Assembly: GCF_024055665.1 (NCBI RefSeq)
Contig: NZ_JAMXMC010000001.1
Span: 62,001 to 126,000 of the forward strand
Direction: 5' to 3'
DNA from: Ideonella oryzae
GTDB taxonomy: Bacteria; Pseudomonadota; Gammaproteobacteria; Burkholderiales; Burkholderiaceae_C
Length of the DNA stretch: 64,000 nucleotides
Of the stretch, positions 18,607-29,813 are shown piece after piece. A program made the translations under genes and the position numbers. The notes beneath the pieces were generated by a model. That model had not been told where the DNA came from and searched no databases. It worked only from the letters and a program-made list of their open reading frames with translations. Position 1 is the first letter of the stretch. Each line of letters opens with the position of its first letter.

Positions 18607-18880
18607 GGGGGCTCCGTGGAAACCAGCGCATTAAAAGCGAAATGGGTGAGACATGCCAAGCGGCGCTCGGAGACCGGGACCCGCCGATCCACTTCCCAAT
18701 CGCCCATCGCGGTCTGGAATCCCTCCATTCCCAAGAGCCAGCCAATCACGGCCGCCGACGGCCATCCCGCCGCCATGCAGTGCGTCCGTCGAACGGCCCG
18801 CTTCGTCACAGGAGGCTCGCGCGTCCCACGCGACCTGCCGATGATCCTCGCTTCTTTTCATCACCCTGCAGAGGAGCGAC

Positions 18881-19750
18881 GTGAAACTGTCCTTGCACAA
18901 CGAACGAAGGCATGTCCGCGACGGCTGGAAGGCCGCCCTGTTCGTGCTCGCGGCGATGGCTTGCTTTGCTGTCGTCGGCTTGATCGGACATCGCCTGCCT
19001 CAGGCGCTGAAGCCCTTCGCGCCGAGCGCCATCCTGATCGCCGTACTGGGCATCGGGATCACGCGTGGCGCCACCTGGCTCGAATCCGAATCACTCGCGA
19101 GCGTCGGGTTGAAGCTGGACAGGAGATTCCTGGCTCAGTTCGCCGGCGGCATGCTCATCGGCGTGGCATTGATCGCTGCCGCGGCGGTCGCGGTGTGCGC
19201 GTTTGCCGGCGTTCGCTTGACTGCCACAGCGGCGCCCGCGCTGCAGGTTGAACTGAAGCTCGCCGTCATGTTCCTGGGCGGCGCGATCTTCGAGGAACTG
19301 CTGTTTCGCGGTTATGCCTTCCAGCGTGCAGCGCGCGGGATGGGGACCTGGCCGGCCATCCTGGTGTTTGGTGTCCTCTTCTGCCTCGGCCATCTCCCGG
19401 GCAACCTGGACGTCGGCTGGCCCTTGCTGAGCCTGGCGATGGCCAACCTCTTTGCAGGTGCGGTGCTGCAGAGCCTGCTGTATGTGCGGACGCACTCGCT
19501 TGCCATGCCGATCGGCCTGCACTTCGGCTGGAACCTGCTGCAAGAGTCACTGGGCTTCGGCGTCAGCGGCTTGTCTTCGCCGCATGCTTGGTTCCATGTC
19601 GACCTGGGGAGCCAGCCGGCGTGGCTCACCGGCGGGAACTTCGGACTGGAGGCGTCGGCCTGGGCACTTGCCGTGGTGATGCTCGCCGTCGCCGCGTCGG
19701 GTCGCTCACGCCAAGGCCCGCTGTTGGCCGACAGCCACCACTCGGCCTAA
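18881..19750 (+). CDS. CPBP-family intramembrane metalloprotease
   Basis: A 289-residue polytopic membrane protein of the CAAX-protease/bacteriocin-processing (CPBP, Abi) family. The family's metal-binding motifs are intact: Glu138-Glu139 and Arg143 in FEELLFRGY, His171 in FCLGHL, and His214/Asn218 in HFGWN. At least six hydrophobic segments are visible. Start is GTG 18881 with GAGGAG upstream. Substrate unknown; some family members give bacteriocin self-immunity. It stands alone, with about 270 bases of gene-free DNA on each side. Confidence 0.88.
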   Translation: MKLSLHNERRHVRDGWKAALFVLAAMACFAVVGLIGHRLPQALKPFAPSAILIAVLGIGITRGATWLESESLASVGLKLDRRFLAQFAGGMLIGVALIAAAAVAVCAFAGVRLTATAAPALQVELKLAVMFLGGAIFEELLFRGYAFQRAARGMGTWPAILVFGVLFCLGHLPGNLDVGWPLLSLAMANLFAGAVLQSLLYVRTHSLAMPIGLHFGWNLLQESLGFGVSGLSSPHAWFHVDLGSQPAWLTGGNFGLEASAWALAVVMLAVAASGRSRQGPLLADSHHSA

Positions 19751-20020
19751 AGACTCGACCGACCGCGCCCGCTGCACGCCTGCCGGTCTCTGATGCGTTT
19801 CGGCTCCCGGCTGACGTGAACCGTGGGAATCGGTGGCCGCCGGATGATTGCAATCTCCAAGAGATCGGCATTCAAGGCTGTCCGCAGCCCTTGTCGGCGA
19901 CCACCCCAAACCCGGGCCCTTGACGACGATCGCCGGGCCTCCAGGCAAAATCCAAATGAACCGTGCGAGCCTGGCGTCGGACCTGCCGGGCAGCCCACCT
20001 TGAAGAATGGAGCAGCATCA

Positions 20021-20461
20021 ATGGCACTGACGAAGAAGGGCGAGTTTTGGTACGGAACGACGTCCGGCGACACCCAAGCCGAGCTTCGCAGCTACAGCAT
20101 TGCAAATCGCCATGAGGCCGTCCGGTTTGCCGCGTCCAAATGCGATTGCGGGTGTCGGACCTTCGCGCTGCAGACCGATGAAGAAGCCGGCGTGGCAATC
20201 CGCACCTGCACCGACTGTGGGCAGGATCACCTGATGGGCGACAGCGCGGACTACGTCGAAGGAGCCGTTCCCGAGACGCACGAGTGCGTGTGCGAGAACG
20301 AGGTGTTTGAGCTGATGTCCGGCGTCTCCGTCTACGAGGGCACACATGACGTGCGCTGGTACTACATCGCTTGCCACTGCGTGGAATGCAATCTGGTCGG
20401 GGTCTTCGCAGACTGGAAGTGTGAAGCGGGTGATGCGGCAGCCTTCCTCGCCAAGGTGTGA
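20021..20461 (+). CDS. Cysteine-rich hypothetical protein, probable zinc binder
   Basis: A 146-residue protein starting at ATG 20021, with GGAG nearby upstream. It has repeated Cys clusters: SKCDCGCRTF, RTCTDCGQDH, HECVCENEVF and ACHCVECNLV, consistent with two or more zinc ribbons. Other features are an aromatic N-terminus (GEFWYGTTSGD) and a C-terminal WYYIACHC strand. Its base composition is visibly less GC-rich than neighbours, suggesting recent acquisition. The family is not recognised with certainty. Confidence 0.7.
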   Translation: MALTKKGEFWYGTTSGDTQAELRSYSIANRHEAVRFAASKCDCGCRTFALQTDEEAGVAIRTCTDCGQDHLMGDSADYVEGAVPETHECVCENEVFELMSGVSVYEGTHDVRWYYIACHCVECNLVGVFADWKCEAGDAAAFLAKV

Positions 20462-20603
20462 GCGGCCGAACCCCGGCGGACTTCGGCATCAGACCGATTC
20501 CGGTCGCTTGTAGGCACGATGCCGGTTGAACGCCTTCTATTCAAACCTGCTGTACGCCGTCGTGATGTCGTTGCCGCAGTGCAGACGTTCGGCCCGCTCG
20601 CCG

Positions 20604-20837
20604 TCATGTCGCCTTGAGGGTCAGTCGGAGACCGACCAGCACAGCGGCGACTCCGATGACGAACGAGAGACCCAACTGATCGCCGAACATGGCCGCCGCA
20701 ATGCCGGTCTTCTGAGTCGCGGTCACCGTCTGCTTCAGACGTACGGCGGCAAACAACACGATGAAGATCGGAACGGTTGCCGAGCCGACGCTTACGAGCG
20801 GCCGCTCCTGGCCGATGGGCGCCGCGCGAGCTGGGCG
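20604..20837 (-). pseudogene. C-terminal remnant of a membrane transporter (EamA-like)
   Basis: On the minus strand, one frame reads VSVGSATVPIFIVLFAAVRL, then a loop, then MFGDQLGLSFVIGVAAVLVG and LRLTLKAT before TGA at 20604. The helix-loop-helix pattern resembles the end of DMT/EamA exporters. No start codon or 5' part exists: the frame runs into the 3' end of the MFS gene at 20851. Probably a truncated leftover from a rearrangement. Confidence 0.35.
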
Positions 20838-20850
20838 CGCGAAGTCGACA

Positions 20851-22032
20851 TCAGGCCGATTGCGCAGGTTCAGGCACCATCAACAGGAACGTTCCTATCG
20901 CGACGACCGACAGCAGCGTCGATGCAGCAAACGCAGCGCTCGGCGCGACGGCCCACAGGGCCCCTGCGATCAGGGATGCGGGCAGGTACATCACGCCGAC
21001 GACAAAGTTGTAAACGCCCACTGCCGTGGCGCGCCGCTCTGGCTCAAGGTCGGCGATGAAGGCCTTGCTTTGCGATTCGTCGATGGCATAGAAGATGCCG
21101 TACACGGCAAACACGACGACGATCTCCCAGCGGCTGCTGGCGAAGACCAGCCACAGAGTGAGACCGGCATACACCGCGTAGCCCAGCAAGACGATGCGGG
21201 TGCGTCCGATGCGATCACCCAGCCAGCCGACCCATGGAGCGGCAACCACGCAGGTGGTGTTGAACAGCGCATACAACAGCACGGTCTCGGTCATGCCGAA
21301 TCCCACGGCGTGAGCTTTGAGCAGAATGAAGCCAAGGCTGAAGTACGCGAGCGCAAAGACTGCGCTCGGCAGCAGGAAGCGCTTGAAGGCCGGTGTGAGT
21401 TGGTGCCAATTCCGTCGCACGCCCTCGCGCTCGTGGACTACGCCGGGCTGGTCGGGAATGCGTGTGAGCACCAGAACGCTGATGACGGCCGGCACGAAGG
21501 CAACCCAGAACAGCGTGGCGTACGTGCTGGCCGACTCCCCCAGCCATGACAGCAGCCCATAAGCCACGAGAGGTCCGATGACAGCGCCTGTCTTGTCGAG
21601 CGCCTTGTGCACGCCAAATGCAAAGCCCCGTGACTTCTTGTCTGAGAGCGATGCCAGCCATGCATCGCGAGGCGGTCCGCGAAAGCCCTTTCCCAAACGC
21701 TCGATGACGCGAAAGACGCTGAGTGCGGCGATGGACGACGACGCCAGCAGGATGATCTTTGCCGATGTGGAGAAGGCGTAGCCTGCGATGGCGAACCACT
21801 TGCGCCGACCGCTGCGATCCGACATCCACCCGGCGAGGTAGTTCAACGACGAGGCGGAGAAGTCCGCCAGCCCCTCGATCAGCCCCAGCAACGCACTGGA
21901 GGCTCCGGCCACCGTGGTGAAGAAGACGGCGAACACCGCGAAGATCATCTCGGAACTGACGTCGGTCAGGAAACTCACCATGCCGAGCTTGAGCACATCG
22001 GGGTGGAGTCTCTGGCGTTGGCGGTGCGACAT
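20851..22032 (-). CDS. MFS transporter
   Basis: A 393-residue major facilitator with 12 predicted helices. The motif-A region between helices 2 and 3 reads GWMSDRSGRRKW, and the equivalent in the second half is GWLGDRIGRTRI. The N-terminal TDVSSEMI, and later ERLGKGFRGPPRDA, are typical of the YfiS/arabinose-efflux-like MFS subgroup. I chose ATG 22032 (MSHRQRQRL); the frame is open from a GTG at 22104. Substrate unknown. The surrounding sequence is less GC-rich than average. Confidence 0.85.
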   Translation of the reverse strand: MSHRQRQRLHPDVLKLGMVSFLTDVSSEMIFAVFAVFFTTVAGASSALLGLIEGLADFSASSLNYLAGWMSDRSGRRKWFAIAGYAFSTSAKIILLASSSIAALSVFRVIERLGKGFRGPPRDAWLASLSDKKSRGFAFGVHKALDKTGAVIGPLVAYGLLSWLGESASTYATLFWVAFVPAVISVLVLTRIPDQPGVVHEREGVRRNWHQLTPAFKRFLLPSAVFALAYFSLGFILLKAHAVGFGMTETVLLYALFNTTCVVAAPWVGWLGDRIGRTRIVLLGYAVYAGLTLWLVFASSRWEIVVVFAVYGIFYAIDESQSKAFIADLEPERRATAVGVYNFVVGVMYLPASLIAGALWAVAPSAAFAASTLLSVVAIGTFLLMVPEPAQSA

Positions 22033-22203
22033 CAGATTGACTCGGCGGAAACAAGCGACAGCTGTGTTTGGGGCCGAAGAGTTGAGCCGTTCAAAGGCTC
22101 CCACACTTCAGACGGTACACGGCCAACGTACGAGGCTGAGGCGGGGACACCGAGCACTGACAGCCGCAGCCCGCCGCCGCCTCCAGGGCGCTGTCTCAGG
22201 CCC

Positions 22204-22599
22204 TCAATCCGGAAAGCGCTCGACATGGCTCTCGCCGCGGCGCCCCAGGTAGACGACATGGCGGCCGGCGATCCAGACCGTGTAGCCGATGCAACCGACG
22301 GCCTGCGTCAGCGCCTTGAACTCGGGGTACATCACGCGGCCTTGCTGGGCGCCTCGGATGGCCGAGCGCACGCCGTCCGCATCGAACGCTGTGCCGATGG
22401 GCGCATGGGGCCGCTCGAAGCTCAGGTCCAAGGTGGTGTCGTCCGGCAGGTAGTAGACGCTGCGACCAGCACGATAGTCGACGTGATAGGACTCGACCCC
22501 GGCCGCCACCAGACGGGCGATCACCTCGCCGAAATGAATGCTGCCCTGGTTGGAGGCCTGGAAGATGGCCTCGATGACGGCGCGGGCGGATTCGTTCAT
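22204..22599 (-). CDS. DUF1398 family protein
   Basis: A 131-residue soluble protein. The C-terminal signature (YPEFKALTQAVGCIGYTVWI, then RHVVYLGRRGESHVERFP) matches the DUF1398/YbcV-like family. The centre holds YHVDYRAGRSVYYLPDD. Start is ATG 22599 with AAGGA upstream. Biochemical role unknown. It lies 44 bases downstream of the MarR gene on the same strand, so it may be under its control together with the divergent GST gene. Confidence 0.8.
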   Translation of the reverse strand: MNESARAVIEAIFQASNQGSIHFGEVIARLVAAGVESYHVDYRAGRSVYYLPDDTTLDLSFERPHAPIGTAFDADGVRSAIRGAQQGRVMYPEFKALTQAVGCIGYTVWIAGRHVVYLGRRGESHVERFPD

Positions 22600-22643
22600 C
22601 AGCGTTCCTTGTGTCGAAGGGTGGGACGGGCGGTCCTGACGGG

Positions 22644-23114
22644 TCAGGCGGCTGGAAGGCTCTTGAGCTGGTGGTGCCGAACCAGGCCCTGCATCGCCTT
22701 CAGCAGCGCACGACGTTCCGCCGTGTCCAGGTGGCCGAAGAAGTGCTCGTCGTTGGCATCGGCCAGGGCGGCCAGCTGGGGCAACAGCTTGCGACCAGCT
22801 GCGGTAAGCACCAGCCGCTGGTCGCGCGCGTTGCCATCCGCATGCTGACGCTCGGCCAGGCCTTTTTCTTCTAGGCGGGAGACCACCTTGGACACGGCGC
22901 CCTTGGTCATGCCCAGGGCATCGATCAGCTGAGCATGGGAGGACGCCTCGCCATCCCACAGGGTGCGCAGCGCCACCCACTCGGCCACGGTGACCCCCTG
23001 CGCTTCCAGCTGCTGCTGGAAGCGCGCGGACACATGGTTGGAGACGAAGCGCAGCCAGAAGCCCAGATGGGCCTCCAGTGCGGATGGCGACGGGGTGGAG
23101 CTGTTCTTGCGCAA
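22644..23114 (-). CDS. MarR-family transcriptional regulator
   Basis: A 156-residue winged-helix regulator: the recognition region AQLIDALGMTKGAVSKVVSR and wing RQHADGNARDQRLVLT are intact. The only in-frame start giving a full N-terminus is TTG at 23114. It diverges from a GST gene, and two palindromes in the gap (23119-23132 and 23146-23159) are good operator candidates. The nearest begins five bases upstream of the start codon, as expected for autorepression. Confidence 0.88.
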   Translation of the reverse strand: MRKNSSTPSPSALEAHLGFWLRFVSNHVSARFQQQLEAQGVTVAEWVALRTLWDGEASSHAQLIDALGMTKGAVSKVVSRLEEKGLAERQHADGNARDQRLVLTAAGRKLLPQLAALADANDEHFFGHLDTAERRALLKAMQGLVRHHQLKSLPAA

Positions 23115-23118
23115 AGGG

Positions 23119-23132
23119 GTTTCCCGGGAAAC
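23119..23132. promoter_or_regulatory. Candidate MarR operator 1
   Basis: A perfect 14-bp palindrome, GTTTCCCGGGAAAC, between the divergent MarR and GST genes. Its centre is 27 bp from a sister palindrome at 23146-23159. Binding is inferred from symmetry, duplication and position. Confidence 0.65.
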
Positions 23133-23145
23133 TTTTCACAGTTTA

Positions 23146-23159
23146 GTTTCCACGGAAAC
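23146..23159. promoter_or_regulatory. Candidate MarR operator 2
   Basis: GTTTCCACGGAAAC, with the same six-base arms as operator 1 (GTTTCC/GGAAAC) around a different two-base centre. It probably overlaps the GST promoter or lies just upstream of it. Confidence 0.65.
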
Positions 23160-23320
23160 ATTGCGTCAAGGCATTTCGATCTGGCCACGAGAGATGGCCG
23201 CCACGGGGACAAAGCCTGCGACAACGCCTGCAAATTTGCGCACAGCAGGCTGCACAAGCTTTCGATGGTGCCGTGCACCAACCCTGCGTAACGTCGTGCC
23301 CACTGCCAACAGGACACGCC

Positions 23321-24019
23321 ATGCACGACCTTGAACTGATCAGCAACACCCTTTGCCCCTACACCCAGCGGGTGGCCATCCAACTGGCCGAGAAGGGCCT
23401 GGAGGCCCGGCGAACCTACATCGACCTGGCCGCCAAGCCGGACTGGTTCATGCAACTGTCGCCCCAGGGCAAGGTGCCCGTTCTGCGGGTGGGTGACACC
23501 GCCGTGTTCGAAACCTCGGTCATCTGCGAGTACATCGAGGAGACCGCCGCCGACCGGACACCGCTGTGGCCAACCCAGGCCCTGGACCGGGCCCGCCACC
23601 GCGCGTGGGCCGAGTTCGCCTCGGCCGTGATCGCCGATGTCTTCGGCTTCTACATGGCGCCGGACGCCGCCAGCTTCGAGCGCAAGAGGGCGGAGCTGGC
23701 CGCACGCTTTGCGCGGCTGGAAGGCCCGCTGACCACCGGCGCCGGGCCCTACTTCGGTGGCGCACGCTTTGGCCTGGTGGACGCCGCCTTCGCGCCGGTC
23801 TTCCGGCTGCTGGACAGCTTTGACCGCCTGGGGGACTTCGGGCTGCTGCAGGGGCTGCCGGCCACGGCGGCCTATCGCCAGCAATTGGCGCAGCGGCCGA
23901 GCGTGCGGGCCGCCGTCGTGCCGGACTACGGCCAGGTCTTCCTGCGCTATCTGGCCGGGCGGGGCTCCCACATGGCGGGCCTGGCGGCCACGGCCCTGGA
24001 GAACTCAGCCCAGGCCTGA
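23321..24019 (+). CDS. Glutathione S-transferase
   Basis: A 232-residue cytosolic GST. The thioredoxin-fold N-terminal domain starts LELISNTLCPYTQRVAIQLA with a CPYTQR active-site motif, followed by GKVPVLRVGD and FETSVICEYIEE (glutathione-binding ESxxI-like region). The helical C-terminal domain follows. Start is ATG 23321 with AGGA upstream. It diverges from the MarR gene, so electrophile-induced detoxification is a reasonable guess. Its 3' end overlaps the convergent LysR gene by 15 bases. Confidence 0.92.
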   Translation: MHDLELISNTLCPYTQRVAIQLAEKGLEARRTYIDLAAKPDWFMQLSPQGKVPVLRVGDTAVFETSVICEYIEETAADRTPLWPTQALDRARHRAWAEFASAVIADVFGFYMAPDAASFERKRAELAARFARLEGPLTTGAGPYFGGARFGLVDAAFAPVFRLLDSFDRLGDFGLLQGLPATAAYRQQLAQRPSVRAAVVPDYGQVFLRYLAGRGSHMAGLAATALENSAQA

Positions 24020-24906
24020 CATCAGCCCGGACGCGCGCCCGATCTCCTCCGCCAGCGCCGCGCTCGCCCGGCGCATGCGCGGCACGCGCGCCACGTCCTC
24101 ATGCATCAGCAGCCACAGCGGCTGGGCCAGCTCGTCCAGCGGCGGCCCCAGCCGCACCAACTCCGGAATGGACCCGCCGACGAAGCACGGGAGAACGGCA
24201 CACCCGATGCCCGTGCGCGCCGCCTGCGCGGCCCCCAGCAAGGTGTTCGCGCGAAAGCGCACATCCTGCGCGACAACATTGCGCGCCAGCCAGGCGCCTG
24301 GCGCGCTGCAAGCCAGCCCCGCATCAAAGCCCACCCACGGCAAGGCAGTGGCCGACGCCGAAGCATCCCCCGCGCCGGCCCACTGCCGCGGCGCATAGAC
24401 CGCCATCGCGACCGTCCCCACCTCGCGACCGCGCAGGGTGTCCTGCGGCGCCCGCGTCACCCGCAGCGCGATGTCGGCATCGCCCTGGGCCAGCGAGACC
24501 ACATCGTTGGAGACATGCAGCTCCAGTTGCAGGCCGACATGGGCGCGGCACACCGCAGCCAACACGCCGGGCAGCAGGTATTCAGAAACCGCGTCCGGCG
24601 CGGTGACGCGCACCGGCCCGTCATGGCCATCGTCGCGCCGGCCACGCGGCGCTCCAGGCTGGCAATCTCCTCGCGAAAGCGCAGCGCCAGCACCCGGACC
24701 TCTTCGCCCGCCTCCGTCGGCCGAAGGCCACCCGGCGTGCGCACGAACAAGCGCGTTCCCAGGCGCTGCTCCATCAGCTGCAGCCGGCGCGACAACGTGG
24801 GATGGCTGACATGCAGCACAGCCGCCGCGCCGGACAAGGTGCCGCTTTCCATGATGGCCAGCGCGATGCGCAGGTCATCCCAGTCGAGGGCAGAGGGGCG
24901 GCTCAT
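24005..24906 (-). pseudogene. LysR-family regulator split by a one-base frameshift
   Basis: ATG 24906 starts a normal LysR helix-turn-helix (WDDLRIALAIMESGTLSGAA, HPTLSRRLQLMEQRLG). The frame is lost near 24613-24617, right after GATMAMTG. The substrate-binding domain (VRVTAPDAVSEYLLPG to EEIGRASGLMSG) continues to 24005 in another frame. Adding one base in the GGCC run would restore MTGPVRVTAPDAV, the normal family sequence. So this is a very recent pseudogene or a base-calling error. Confidence 0.8.
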
Positions 24907-25202
24907 GGGCGGGATTGTCGCTGGGGGCGTATGGGTGGTGGGTTTCGGTTCGGGGCGACACAGCTGGGTCAGCGTACTTGGTCTTGGCTGCGGAAGGCAG
25001 CCACAGACTGAAGGCGGACGTTCATCAACGACCGCTTTGCGGTATCCGAATGCTTGGAAATTCCTTGGGCCGTAGCAGTCTCAGTTCTCAGCGTCGAGCC
25101 GGTGGCATCGCCGAGGAAACCTCAATAGCACTGGGAGAAGCGCTAGGCCGAGCGCCATATGCTTGGGGTCGTCGCGACGGTGCGCGCCGCTGAGCTACTT
25201 AG

Positions 25203-28200
25203 TCACTTGCCAGACTTTCCCGAGCGAGCCGCCTTCGAGGCCGCCCTGCTGCCTTTGACCGTTTTCGCCGATGCCTTGGCCTTGGCCGTCTGTTTTGAGC
25301 CCTTTGCGGGACGATGCTCTTTCGGCAGCCGGGGCGTCAGGTCCAGCACGCGCGCCATGACTCGCGCCTCGCCGCCCGCCCGTTGCTGCGCGAGCTGCGC
25401 CGCCTCGGTCAGCATGTCTTGAAGCTGGTGCCGGTCCATGGGCTGACCAGTGTCCGGGTGATACCACCGCTTTTCCGGGTCGGCCACTGTCACTAGCAAA
25501 CAGCCCGTCTTCGCGTTGCGGGCATACATGTACTTCTTGACCAGCTGTGTTTCGATCGTGTCGCGTAGCTCCGTCGCAGTTCTGGGCTTCTCTCCAATCT
25601 TCAGCTCGATCGTCGCCTGGTACCGCGACAGGGCCCGGAATCGGATATCCGTCTCCTTGCCATCCACGGTGACTCCTTCTTGGTCGACGGTGTAGGCCCC
25701 TTTTGACATCATGTCTAGTTGGTGGGCAATGGCGGGGCGAAGCGTGTTCTCATCGGTCACCTTGGCCCAGGCGGCCTTGGGACTTGCGTCGATGCCCATT
25801 AGGTCCTGCAAATCGTCCAGCCTGTCACTGAGCAGGTGCGCCATGTCGGTTGTTGTCATCGGCGCGAGTTCATTGCCCCGGAAGAGCCGCGCGAGCTCCT
25901 CCATCGAGATCACGCTGGCATCGGTCTCTTCCGCCAGCCGCTCATGCGCCAGAGCTGCGATGCGATCCCGGGCATGGGCGAACAGCGGATCGGTGGACAA
26001 CGCCAGCTTCGCCTGATAGGCCTGCGCACCAGTTGCTTGGATCAGGGCGTCAAACACCAGCCTTCGACCGGTCTCGGCGTTGTCTCGGGGACCCGGCGAG
26101 TAGGCATCCTCATGCTGTTCATCTGCTGCCGGAACGACATGCCGGTTGATCTCTTGGTTCAAGCGCAGCAGCGTCTCCGGCGCCAGCGCCGCGCTCCATT
26201 TGGGCCCTCCTTCGGCACGCCGCTCGCTGAATAGGCTGCCGATGGCTGTCACGGCAACGCCCCTGCGTTCGACGGGCAAGACGCTGAGCGCGCGCAAAAG
26301 CAGGGCGGCGCCCCTCCCTGGATTGAGTCGCATCAATACAGGCAGCCAGAAGAACAAAAACGGCCCTTGCTTCGCCGCAATGACCTCGCGGGTGGCCAGC
26401 TCCATCAGCCAGAGCTTCGTCTCCGGGGTTCCATGGACCAGCAGCACGCGCACAACTTGATCCAGCTTTGCCTCCGCCACCGGGCTGTGACGGCCGTGCA
26501 TCAGCTTCCTGCCAGGGCCGCGGAGCCACAGGACCAAGCGGCGTTCCAACACCCGGGCGATCTCGATTCGGCCGTATCGCAGGCTCTGCAGCAACATCGA
26601 GTGCCAGCCGCCGCCGCCCTTCCCCTTGAGCTCACTTTCAATTTCGCTGCCAAGCACTTGCTCGACAACCTGACCGTGGGCATCCGCAAGCGCCGCAAGC
26701 CAATCGGGCAGGCCGTTCAGCTCCACCAACGCGTACCGTACGGCCAGATCGGCCTCGGCGGCACTAATGGAGCGCGTCCAACGGGGATCCTCTGCTTCGG
26801 CGTACAGCCCCATCAGTCCATACGTCCAGACCACCAAGTAGGTATTCTTCTCCTTGCGCTCGGAGGGGAGCGTGGGCTTCATGTCCCGCCAGTACGCCAT
26901 CAAGCTTCTGCGCACGGCTTCGGTCACCGGCCCCGTGAAGGACTTCTCGATGAACTCGCGATCCCAGCGCACCCTGTCACGGCCGCGCGACCGTTTGCTC
27001 AACACCGTCGACAGCTTCCAAAGCGTGCCCTTGACCCGGCCGGGCGCCAGCGCCAGCGCCGGCCGTTCGGCGAGCTCCTTCCAGAAGGCGGTCCATTCCG
27101 CCCGGTAACCAGCTTGCTTAAGAGCATGGCGCTCTGAGCGCTTGCGCTCTTGCTCTTGCGCCTCACGCATCTGGCGCGTCGGCACATTTGCCTTGATGAG
27201 CTCTTCCAACTCTGCCGTGAGTGCCGGCGAATCCTTCACAGCTTCGCGCACGGGCTGCATCTCTGCCGGCACGTCGGTCCGCGCCAGGTAGGTCGTCATG
27301 CGCAGCAGCAGCGACCGCCGTGCCTTGTCGGTGCCGGCATTGGCCAGGTCGCGCAGCACCCAGGGTCCGTCCTTCTCCATGCTGTACTGCAGCGGCCCCT
27401 GAAACATCAGGCGAGCGAGCACCATCTGGGCTGATCGGCGCGACTCGAGGCGGGCGACGCACGCCAAGTCTGATTCGAAGACGGCACGGCGCTCCTGCAC
27501 GGGCAACTCGCCGATCAACTCCACCAGCTTGCGCTTACGATCGTTGTCCAGCGACGAGTAGCCAGCGGCCCTGAAGCCCAGCACCGCTGCATCGATCAGG
27601 TCGGGCGCCCGACTTCCATCCTGCAGGAGGCGCACGCTCAGGCCGCGCAGGATGTAGGACGCTTGCAGCCGCCCCTTGCGATCGTTCAGACTGTCCACAT
27701 CCTTGTCCACGACGACCGAGCTTCGTGTCAGCGCAAGCACCCCGGGCAGCAAGGATTCCAGCCTCTCGCGGCTGACCGAAACGCGCTCGAGCATCGCGGC
27801 CATGCCGCTCGGAAAAAAATCGTCCCGTCTCGACGCGCGTGGGATAGCGGTCAGCAGCCGAACGAACTGATCATCCGTCACGTTCTTCGGGTAGAAGTTC
27901 TGCGCGACCCACCGGCCAATGCGATGGCCCCAGCCCAGCTGGGATGACGCCAGAGCCTCGATCAGCGCATCGACGCGGTAGTCGTCCAGCTCGACCAGCG
28001 CCTCCAAGGCCTCAAACCGCTCCCGGTCCTCGCAGGCCTTGTTCTCGGCGACCGACACCGCCAGATCGGCGCACTGCTTGTACCGACCGACCGCAATCAG
28101 CTGCAACAGGATCTGACGGACCTCGGGGTTCTCAATGCCGGCCGACCAGGCCTCCAGGATGACCTGGTGCAGAGGCTGGCGAGCAAGCCGTTCCAGCTGG

Positions 28201-29597
28201 AGGCTTGGCAATTCCAGGCCGCGCCATTGCCCGGCGCCATGGCGTTTGACGTACGCCCCGAGCGCTTGGGCGCACTGGTCCTGACTGAGCGACTCGGGAT
28301 CACCATAGAGCAATAGCGTGCTGGGTTCGACCTTCAAGACCGCGTCGAAGAGCTCTTGACGCATCTTGGCGACCCAGGCAGCCACGGGCCGCATGGACGG
28401 CTTCGGCAGCAGCACATGGGTATCAGAGAGGCTGAACAGCATCCGCTTGGCTGCCGAAACAGCAAGCGCGCCGGAGCCGATCAAATAATCGATTTCAGTG
28501 GCGGCCAAGAACTCGAGCACCGATCGGTGATGAAAGCGGACCCGGCCATACCCGCCCTCCGCGAAGATCGGCCTCTGCAGCAGCGTCTCAATCTCGCTGG
28601 ATGTGAAGTCTGACAGCAGGTCATCCGGCACTAGCGGCGCGTCGCCCGAGCCTTCGACATCCGCGCCAGCGCTGTGGCGAATCGTGAGGCGGCGACTGAG
28701 GATGGCCGCGAGCGCCAGCCTCTGGACGCCAGTGCGCGCCCGGTCAAGGGTAAGCTCAGCCGGCTCCTTCCGCTTGGGGCGCGCGCGCAGCCTCGCCTTG
28801 ATGTGACTCTTCAACTGCTCGTAGTGCGAGCGGATCTTTCCGTGATCCCGCCAGCTGTCGCATAGTTCGATCAGATCCTGCGGGCGGCGCGCGAAGTCCT
28901 CCGCGTGCCGGGCACGGATCTCCTCGAGCAGTTTCTCGGGGTTCTTGACGCCTTGGCCTCGGGCAAACTCGGCGATCTCATCGTCGGAGAACGGCAGCAG
29001 CGTCACTTCCCGGAAGGGCGGGGATCGATCCTTGTCGTCGTCGGTCGGCCCTTCCAGCGCCGTCCGGACGAACGATTCGCCGTGTCCTTCATCGATGGCG
29101 ACCTTGGGCACCGGCAGCACGTCCGCGAACGCTCGTCGGTCTATGTCGACGGGGCGGGAGGTCACGACGACTGTTGCCCGACCCAGCGCCCCTTCCAGAT
29201 CCTCGTGCACGCGCTTGAGCGCATTGCGAAAGTCTCCGTGTACCAGCTGCAGCTCGTCGATGGAGTCGAAGAAAAAGTAGCCGATCTGGGACGAAGACGC
29301 CCGCCAGTCGTCGAATCGCTTCTTGAACTGCTCGCCGGTGAGCGAAGACCGAATCCCGGTGGCGGCCACCGTTTCCAGCCGCAGGAAGAAGGCCGCCTCA
29401 CCGCGCTTGAAGAGGTCGTCGGCCTGCGCTTCGCACTCATAGGTCTTGCCCGCCCCCGCCTCGGCGACCAGCAGGACGCGCAGGGACTGGAGCAGCGTGG
29501 ACCATTCGATGGTTTGGCCGAGGTAGACATTTCCGCGGCTTTCGATGGACGCTTCCGAAGCGGCCTCGCTGGCGTTGACGCCAAATCTTCGTTCCAT
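25203..29597 (-). CDS. NACHT/STAND ATPase with C-terminal PD-(D/E)XK nuclease-like domain
   Basis: A 1464-residue protein. The N-terminal NACHT module shows Walker A EAGAGKT (Lys51), Walker B YFFFDSIDE (Asp111-Glu115), the sensor VVVTSRP (about 144-149), and the NACHT-typical HHRSVLEFLAA near residue 355. A long region of helical (HEAT/ARM-like) repeats follows, likely the sensor. Near the C-terminus, KETDIRF (Asp1317), ATIELKIG (Glu1331, Lys1333) and a helix with TQLVKKYM match the D, ExK and QxxxY motifs of PD-(D/E)XK nucleases. The last 40 residues are Lys/Ala/Ser-rich. Relatives (Avs, bNACHT) are anti-phage proteins, usually with the effector at the N-terminus. It is alone on its strand, with a less GC-rich sequence, suggesting transfer. 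Confidence 0.82.
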   Translation of the reverse strand: MERRFGVNASEAASEASIESRGNVYLGQTIEWSTLLQSLRVLLVAEAGAGKTYECEAQADDLFKRGEAAFFLRLETVAATGIRSSLTGEQFKKRFDDWRASSSQIGYFFFDSIDELQLVHGDFRNALKRVHEDLEGALGRATVVVTSRPVDIDRRAFADVLPVPKVAIDEGHGESFVRTALEGPTDDDKDRSPPFREVTLLPFSDDEIAEFARGQGVKNPEKLLEEIRARHAEDFARRPQDLIELCDSWRDHGKIRSHYEQLKSHIKARLRARPKRKEPAELTLDRARTGVQRLALAAILSRRLTIRHSAGADVEGSGDAPLVPDDLLSDFTSSEIETLLQRPIFAEGGYGRVRFHHRSVLEFLAATEIDYLIGSGALAVSAAKRMLFSLSDTHVLLPKPSMRPVAAWVAKMRQELFDAVLKVEPSTLLLYGDPESLSQDQCAQALGAYVKRHGAGQWRGLELPSLQLERLARQPLHQVILEAWSAGIENPEVRQILLQLIAVGRYKQCADLAVSVAENKACEDRERFEALEALVELDDYRVDALIEALASSQLGWGHRIGRWVAQNFYPKNVTDDQFVRLLTAIPRASRRDDFFPSGMAAMLERVSVSRERLESLLPGVLALTRSSVVVDKDVDSLNDRKGRLQASYILRGLSVRLLQDGSRAPDLIDAAVLGFRAAGYSSLDNDRKRKLVELIGELPVQERRAVFESDLACVARLESRRSAQMVLARLMFQGPLQYSMEKDGPWVLRDLANAGTDKARRSLLLRMTTYLARTDVPAEMQPVREAVKDSPALTAELEELIKANVPTRQMREAQEQERKRSERHALKQAGYRAEWTAFWKELAERPALALAPGRVKGTLWKLSTVLSKRSRGRDRVRWDREFIEKSFTGPVTEAVRRSLMAYWRDMKPTLPSERKEKNTYLVVWTYGLMGLYAEAEDPRWTRSISAAEADLAVRYALVELNGLPDWLAALADAHGQVVEQVLGSEIESELKGKGGGGWHSMLLQSLRYGRIEIARVLERRLVLWLRGPGRKLMHGRHSPVAEAKLDQVVRVLLVHGTPETKLWLMELATREVIAAKQGPFLFFWLPVLMRLNPGRGAALLLRALSVLPVERRGVAVTAIGSLFSERRAEGGPKWSAALAPETLLRLNQEINRHVVPAADEQHEDAYSPGPRDNAETGRRLVFDALIQATGAQAYQAKLALSTDPLFAHARDRIAALAHERLAEETDASVISMEELARLFRGNELAPMTTTDMAHLLSDRLDDLQDLMGIDASPKAAWAKVTDENTLRPAIAHQLDMMSKGAYTVDQEGVTVDGKETDIRFRALSRYQATIELKIGEKPRTATELRDTIETQLVKKYMYARNAKTGCLLVTVADPEKRWYHPDTGQPMDRHQLQDMLTEAAQLAQQRAGGEARVMARVLDLTPRLPKEHRPAKGSKQTAKAKASAKTVKGSRAASKAARSGKSGK

Positions 29598-29813
29598 AGC
29601 CTCAGTTTAAGCAGCATGCCCAAACCGGCTAGTTGCGCCCGCTGTCATCACCCGTCCCACAGCGCGTCGCTCTTCCACACAGTCTCTCAAGCGGGTCGCT
29701 GCTGGTTCCCAGAGCGACGAATCCACAGTCCGCGTTTGCCTTCCTAAGGGCGGCTTTCGGGCGAGCTATTCACCGGGCGTGGTTACCTGCTTTCGCTGCA
29801 AAGCCGCCTCCCC

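Follow-up and report, generated by a model that had tools for sequence, protein, structure and literature searches.

A HyoA-family NACHT protein of Ideonella oryzae with a predicted PD-(D/E)XK nuclease at its C terminus

The window analyzed here is a stretch of 64,000 nucleotides from Ideonella oryzae (contig NZ_JAMXMC010000001.1, positions 62,001 to 126,000). On its reverse strand lies a large gene whose product (hereafter the window protein) combines an N-terminal NACHT module, a helical-repeat middle part, and a predicted C-terminal nuclease. We think it probable that this product, which belongs to the HyoA family, is an NLR-like protein that forms a one-gene antiphage system. The gene and its features, as well as the variable stretch that holds it, are as follows.

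25203–29597, reverse strand: HyoA-family gene, an intact open reading frame (ORF) of 1464 amino acids that matches NF058534 with 1263.7 bits (profile positions 1–1430 of 1430)
28098–29510, reverse strand: NACHT module at about residues 30–500, helical and winged-helix parts included
29442–29462, reverse strand: Walker A motif, EAGAGKT (residues 46–52, with K51); G50 and K51 are identical in 81/81 sequences
29253–29267, reverse strand: Walker B motif, DSIDE (residues 111–115); D111, D114, and E115 are identical in 81/81
25833–28097, reverse strand: helical-repeat region, the putative sensor (about residues 501–1255), almost entirely helix in the model
25338–25751, reverse strand: predicted PD-(D/E)XK nuclease core (about residues 1283–1420), based on a model with a predicted local distance difference test (pLDDT) score of 91.3 and on VIA-align matches
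25599–25649, reverse strand: predicted metal-binding site, D1317 (25647–25649), E1331 (25605–25607), and K1333 (25599–25601), each identical in 81/81
25530–25547, reverse strand: QxxxxY motif, Q1351 (25545–25547) and Y1356 (25530–25532), each identical in 81/81
18617–29792, no strand: variable stretch holding the gene, 11.2 kb with 65.1% guanine plus cytosine (GC), from blastn comparison with the loci L113 and L114

The ORF starts with ATG and has no internal stops. The open frame around it comprises 1467 codons, with a stop three codons 5′ of the ATG, and because only these three codons are open upstream, the N terminus of the window protein can be taken as genuine. When 10 ORFs around the gene were compared with PADLOC, nine were without a match and one, a MarR-type regulator, weakly matched CARF models (best E 9e-5). 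An overlooked upstream domain or partner gene was rejected on these grounds, and within these 10 ORFs the gene stands alone, as a preliminary description of this DNA had noted. The same description had pointed to less GC-rich DNA, which agrees with a GC content of 64.2% for the gene versus 69.6% for the window. GC at third codon positions is 79.1% in the gene, compared with 88.0%, 92.2%, and 95.3% in the genes for a glutathione S-transferase (GST), mdcH, and mdcA, respectively; a major facilitator superfamily (MFS) gene in the same variable stretch has a value in a similar range (77.8%).

Family assignment was done with NCBIfam release 20. The window protein matches all 1430 positions of the equivalog family NF058534, “NACHT domain-containing antiphage protein HyoA,” and passes its cut-off of 1200 bits, whereas its score for NF058535 (“EruA”) is 148.7 bits against a cut-off of 1000, so it is not an EruA member. 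Five other members of the class that exceed the HyoA cut-off score between 1511.7 and 1624.7; the window protein, being close to the cut-off, is thus a divergent HyoA member. It is alike to the family in full-length match and in size (1464 residues versus 1430 profile positions), and no tested feature separates the two. PADLOC-DB (2023 version) contains no model that the window protein matches up to E 5, and the names HyoA and EruA were not found as antiphage names in the open-licence literature that was searched. The preliminary description had suggested an undescribed antiphage architecture. The antiphage part of this suggestion is supported by the family name and the passed cut-off, and the gene may protect against phage. 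The claim to an undescribed architecture was rejected, because NCBIfam already names the family and because EruA members have the same domain order. The gene belongs to a family already catalogued as antiphage and is itself of low novelty.

Conservation was assessed over 81 full-length sequences, namely the window protein, nine sequences from an existing alignment (A1), and 71 of 80 genome loci, each with an ORF of 1390 or more amino acids; the nine loci left out were short, disrupted, or truncated at the edge of a contig. The 80 loci are the best of 332 relatives found in a scan of genome contigs. The NACHT and nuclease motifs and their neighborhood contain thirteen residues, from G50 to Y1356, that are identical in 81/81 sequences, which argues that the motifs quoted are not due to chance. 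The window protein is real, intact, and well conserved.

At the N-terminal end, the NACHT core begins after about 30 residues, and residues 10–26 have a pLDDT below 50. In addition to the Walker motifs, this module contains VVVTSRP (residues 143–149), in which R148 is identical in 81/81 sequences, and HHRSVLEFLAA (residues 356–366). VIA-align comparisons of a model of residues 1–1190 gave NOD2, NLRP3, and NLRC4 as the best structural alignments. With both Walker motifs and a predicted NLR-type NACHT fold, the protein has the features of a NACHT/STAND NTPase. This is in line with the complete NACHT core that had been placed at the extreme N terminus. Pfam does not detect it: NACHT (PF05729) is not matched by the window protein at E 0.01, being matched by 5 of 40 relatives (best 6.3e-5), and the only Pfam hit is a weak AAA match under its cut-off. 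No effector domain N-terminal to NACHT was found in the model or, given the upstream stop, in the frame, and the window protein therefore belongs neither to the bNACHT proteins with an N-terminal effector nor to Avs.

At the opposite end, a model of residues 1160–1430 has the order helix-strand-strand-strand-helix-strand, which is the topology of PD-(D/E)XK nucleases. D1317 is placed before the second strand and E1331 and K1333 in the third, and restriction-type nucleases are the best structural matches. Asp1317, Glu1331, Lys1333, and the segment TQLVKKYM had been proposed earlier as nuclease residues, and all are in place within this predicted core. We considered that the domain could be a decayed, inactive PD-(D/E)XK fold retained for protein contacts, as Pfam shows no nuclease family in this C terminus and the C-terminal profile, searched against PDB sequences, found no nuclease. 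The model is confident and has the right topology, however, and seven residues (E1283, E1307, D1317, E1331, K1333, Q1351, and Y1356) are identical in 81/81 sequences, among relatives down to 18% overall identity, so that we regard decay as highly improbable. With D and ExK on neighboring strands, the C-terminal domain is predicted to be an active nuclease. A separate observation concerns genome G048, in which only a C-terminal piece is found (L115:5244–6602), a 452-amino-acid ORF that is 70% identical to residues 1143–1464 and has the nuclease residues. It could be a remnant or a free-standing nuclease, and we read it as a remnant.

The family is patchily distributed. HyoA matches (E 0.001) occur in 20 of 369 sampled genomes of the class, 6 of which, including that of I. 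oryzae itself, have a match above the cut-off; EruA matches occur in 43 of the 369, with 2 above the EruA cut-off. Among 149 nearer genomes, nine have a HyoA match, and only the genome under study is above the cut-off. By record titles and by the tree, the relatives are mostly Pseudomonadota, with some Thermodesulfobacteriota, Verrucomicrobiota, and Chlorobiota, and the tree, built with a quick method (support of at least 95 for 55 of 78 inner branches, with 14 drawn open), mixes these phyla. Of the best 80 relatives, the one closest to the window protein, at 64% identity, comes from Acidovorax sp. CCYZU-2555. Plasmids of Pseudomonas aeruginosa carry copies with 56% identity. In total, 65 plasmid records match the window protein, and in 12 the match spans 80% or more of its length. 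Relatives are also present in two Acinetobacter phage records and five viral contigs.

The genes nearest to the relatives include those for a CBASS cyclase, BrxL, PtuA, AriA, IetA, and a type I restriction enzyme. For 49 loci, the 98 nearest genes gave 140 PADLOC model matches, compared with 22 for 88 genes at least 5.5 kb away in the same loci, in a count where one protein matches many models and ORFs were called by a simple rule; eight systems are named among 25 listed of the 140 matches, versus seven in the 22 control matches. Relatives on named plasmids and in the phage record have HEPN, HepT-like, DUF262, CHAT, TIR, and SIR2 proteins, conjugation genes, and transposases as neighbors. The window gene itself adjoins metabolic genes (the mdc operon, GST, and MFS) rather than lying in a defense island, a setting that would suit a STAND-type regulator or a DNA-repair factor that uses its C-terminal fold for DNA binding. 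Such a role outside defense seems very unlikely to us, considering the antiphage family name with its passed cut-off, the invariant catalytic residues, and a spread that is sparse in the class, crosses phyla, and extends to plasmids.

Bacterial NACHT proteins described in passages of PMC12169576 have an N-terminal effector, a central NACHT, and a C-terminal sensor, and in clade 6 the effector is a PD-(D/E)XK DNase. The preliminary description had remarked that known Avs and many bNACHT proteins place a nuclease before the ATPase. Like the clade 6 proteins bNACHT25 and bNACHT32, as portrayed in the same passages, the window protein has both a PD-(D/E)XK nuclease and a NACHT switch on a single chain; in those two the nuclease is N-terminal, whereas here it is C-terminal with nothing folded before NACHT. 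The order is likewise opposite to that of Avs4 (8dgf). Two members of the sister family EruA above its cut-off (L212 and L213, the same genes as L119 and L118) share the order of the window protein, NACHT first and D..ExK..Q..Y last. A catalytic domain placed after a STAND module is not without precedent, since an excerpt of PMC8195603 reports STAND proteins with GT4 domains, often at the C terminus; DS-8, according to part of PMC13092281, is a NACHT protein with a metallophosphatase domain.

The C termini of 45 further loci were read, 43 of which remained after two (L210 and L216) yielded no ORF passing the filter; some are genes already met (e.g., L177 and L178 versus L048 and L102), and a single protein seems to be represented twice, on two contigs, as L175 and L176. 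The D..ExK..Q..Y pattern, a loose pattern counted without a shuffled control, is kept in 39 of the 43, the two EruA members among them. It is lacking in L191, L201, L144, and L207. The first two were dropped as replacements, L191 because of an in-frame stop with more open frame beyond and L201 because it is shorter and has no C-terminal match. L144 and L207 retain the family sequence as far as the helices that precede the nuclease (positions 3–98 and 3–95 of the C-terminal profile, respectively) and then diverge. The HyoA-like protein of L144:4905–8831 (1308 amino acids; IMG/VR contig 2706794652_000001) ends in a transmembrane helix instead of a nuclease, with a mean hydropathy of 2.84 over 19 residues. 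The HyoA-like protein of L207:2774–6706 (the L139 gene of genome G180) ends in a 19-residue motif that recurs at the N terminus of the 112-amino-acid product of the next gene (L207:6722–7060), which begins with an ATG 15 bases downstream of the stop. The two copies of this motif are identical at 11 or more of 19 positions by eye, and their score of 57 was reached by 0 of 1000 shuffles. The L144 tail and the L207 motif look alike by eye, yet their likeness is no greater than that of shuffled sequences (392 and 154 of 1000). In amyloid-signaling (BASS) pairs as outlined in part of PMC7889193, the NLR carries its motif at the N terminus and the partner at the C terminus; the L207 pair resembles these in sharing a motif, with both positions reversed, just as the position of the nuclease is reversed. 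By inspection only, no motif of this type was seen in the window protein.

Searches for more such cases gave none. For L144, viral contigs contained only the gene itself, and phage records gave two distant matches, both to residues 1–506; for L139, 303 genomes contained the gene itself and four distant matches. The named plasmid relatives L224, L225, and L227 have no other ends, all three showing the nuclease pattern. The replacement of the nuclease is therefore an observation on two genes, and these weakly indicate that the C terminus is an exchangeable effector part. Apart from these, a family copy on Burkholderia glumae plasmid p3_21g (L223:4007–10033) is split by an ISNCY transposase immediately upstream of the nuclease part, with the same kind of match in other B. 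glumae plasmid records, and L226 stops at about the same boundary. The plasmid copy and L226 are counted as broken genes, not as other architectures.

In the mechanism that we favor, the helical-repeat middle would recognize a phage product or a change linked to infection, upon which the N-terminal NACHT module would exchange its nucleotide and oligomerize. Oligomerization may gather or free the C-terminal PD-(D/E)XK domains, which would then cut DNA of the phage, the host, or both, so that infection is stopped. This reading is supported by the antiphage family name and passed cut-off; by the invariance of K51, Walker B, and the seven nuclease residues; by the predicted nuclease topology with restriction-type best matches and the NLR NACHT structures that best fit the N-terminal part; and by relatives that lie near other defense genes, 39 of 43 keeping the nuclease pattern and two having the nuclease alone replaced. 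Sequence and models together thus support family membership, the NACHT module, the solenoid, and a nuclease fold with an invariant active site. A different possibility is that the C-terminal nuclease itself recognizes and cuts phage DNA, as a restriction enzyme would, with the NACHT ATPase acting as its motor or gate, much as in McrBC, and with no distant protein sensor. The match of the NACHT part to NLR receptors speaks against this, as do the two relatives that retain NACHT and solenoid with the nuclease replaced. So does the solenoid, which is the least conserved part, as expected of a sensor: identity among the relatives is lowest at residues 521–840 and 1001–1120, both within the helical-repeat region. 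We consider restriction-like action rather unlikely.

If the window protein works as a sensor-triggered nuclease, the effector lies behind the sensor, which raises the question of how nucleotide-driven assembly is passed along a solenoid about 700 residues long; the effectors of bacterial NACHT proteins described in the passages cited above are N-terminal and clustered by ring assembly. From the sequences compared, the C terminus may serve as a slot for interchangeable effectors, which would mirror the layout of ordinary NLRs and may be new. More broadly, HyoA, EruA, and their relatives could form a class of “inverted” NLRs with a modular effector slot behind the sensor solenoid, mostly filled by a PD-(D/E)XK nuclease and otherwise by a transmembrane helix (the copy on a viral contig) or by a short homotypic motif through which the neighboring gene's product is recruited, NACHT assembly driving an effector at the far end of the sensor rather than on the ring. 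We put this forward tentatively, at somewhat under an even chance, because no further replacement cases were found and the likeness of the L144 and L207 tails does not exceed shuffles. The two relatives with exchanged ends are natural tests, because the ending varies (nuclease, membrane anchor, or recruiting motif) while switch and sensor stay the same. What is new is at most this possibly modular C-terminal slot of the wider family, of which the window gene is one more, rather divergent, catalogued member.

The gene lies on the strand of mdcH and starts 216 bases after mdcH ends. In G001, the nearest relative with an mdc operon (mdcH protein 95% identical), the counterpart of the variable stretch (L114:2362–6819) is 4.46 kb of different DNA with a GC content of 63.5%. 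No direct or inverted repeats of 11 bases join the two edges of the stretch. A single-gene insertion with terminal repeats is unsupported, as G001 differs over 11.2 kb versus 4.46 kb and not over one gene. The stretch after the malonate decarboxylase operon, wholly different between close relatives, gives the impression of a turnover site. Elsewhere in the stretch, a LysR-type regulator on the reverse strand (24008–24906) is found in two overlapping frames, with the helix-turn-helix part at 24460–24906 and the substrate domain at 24008–24613, and is either a broken gene or the result of a sequencing error.

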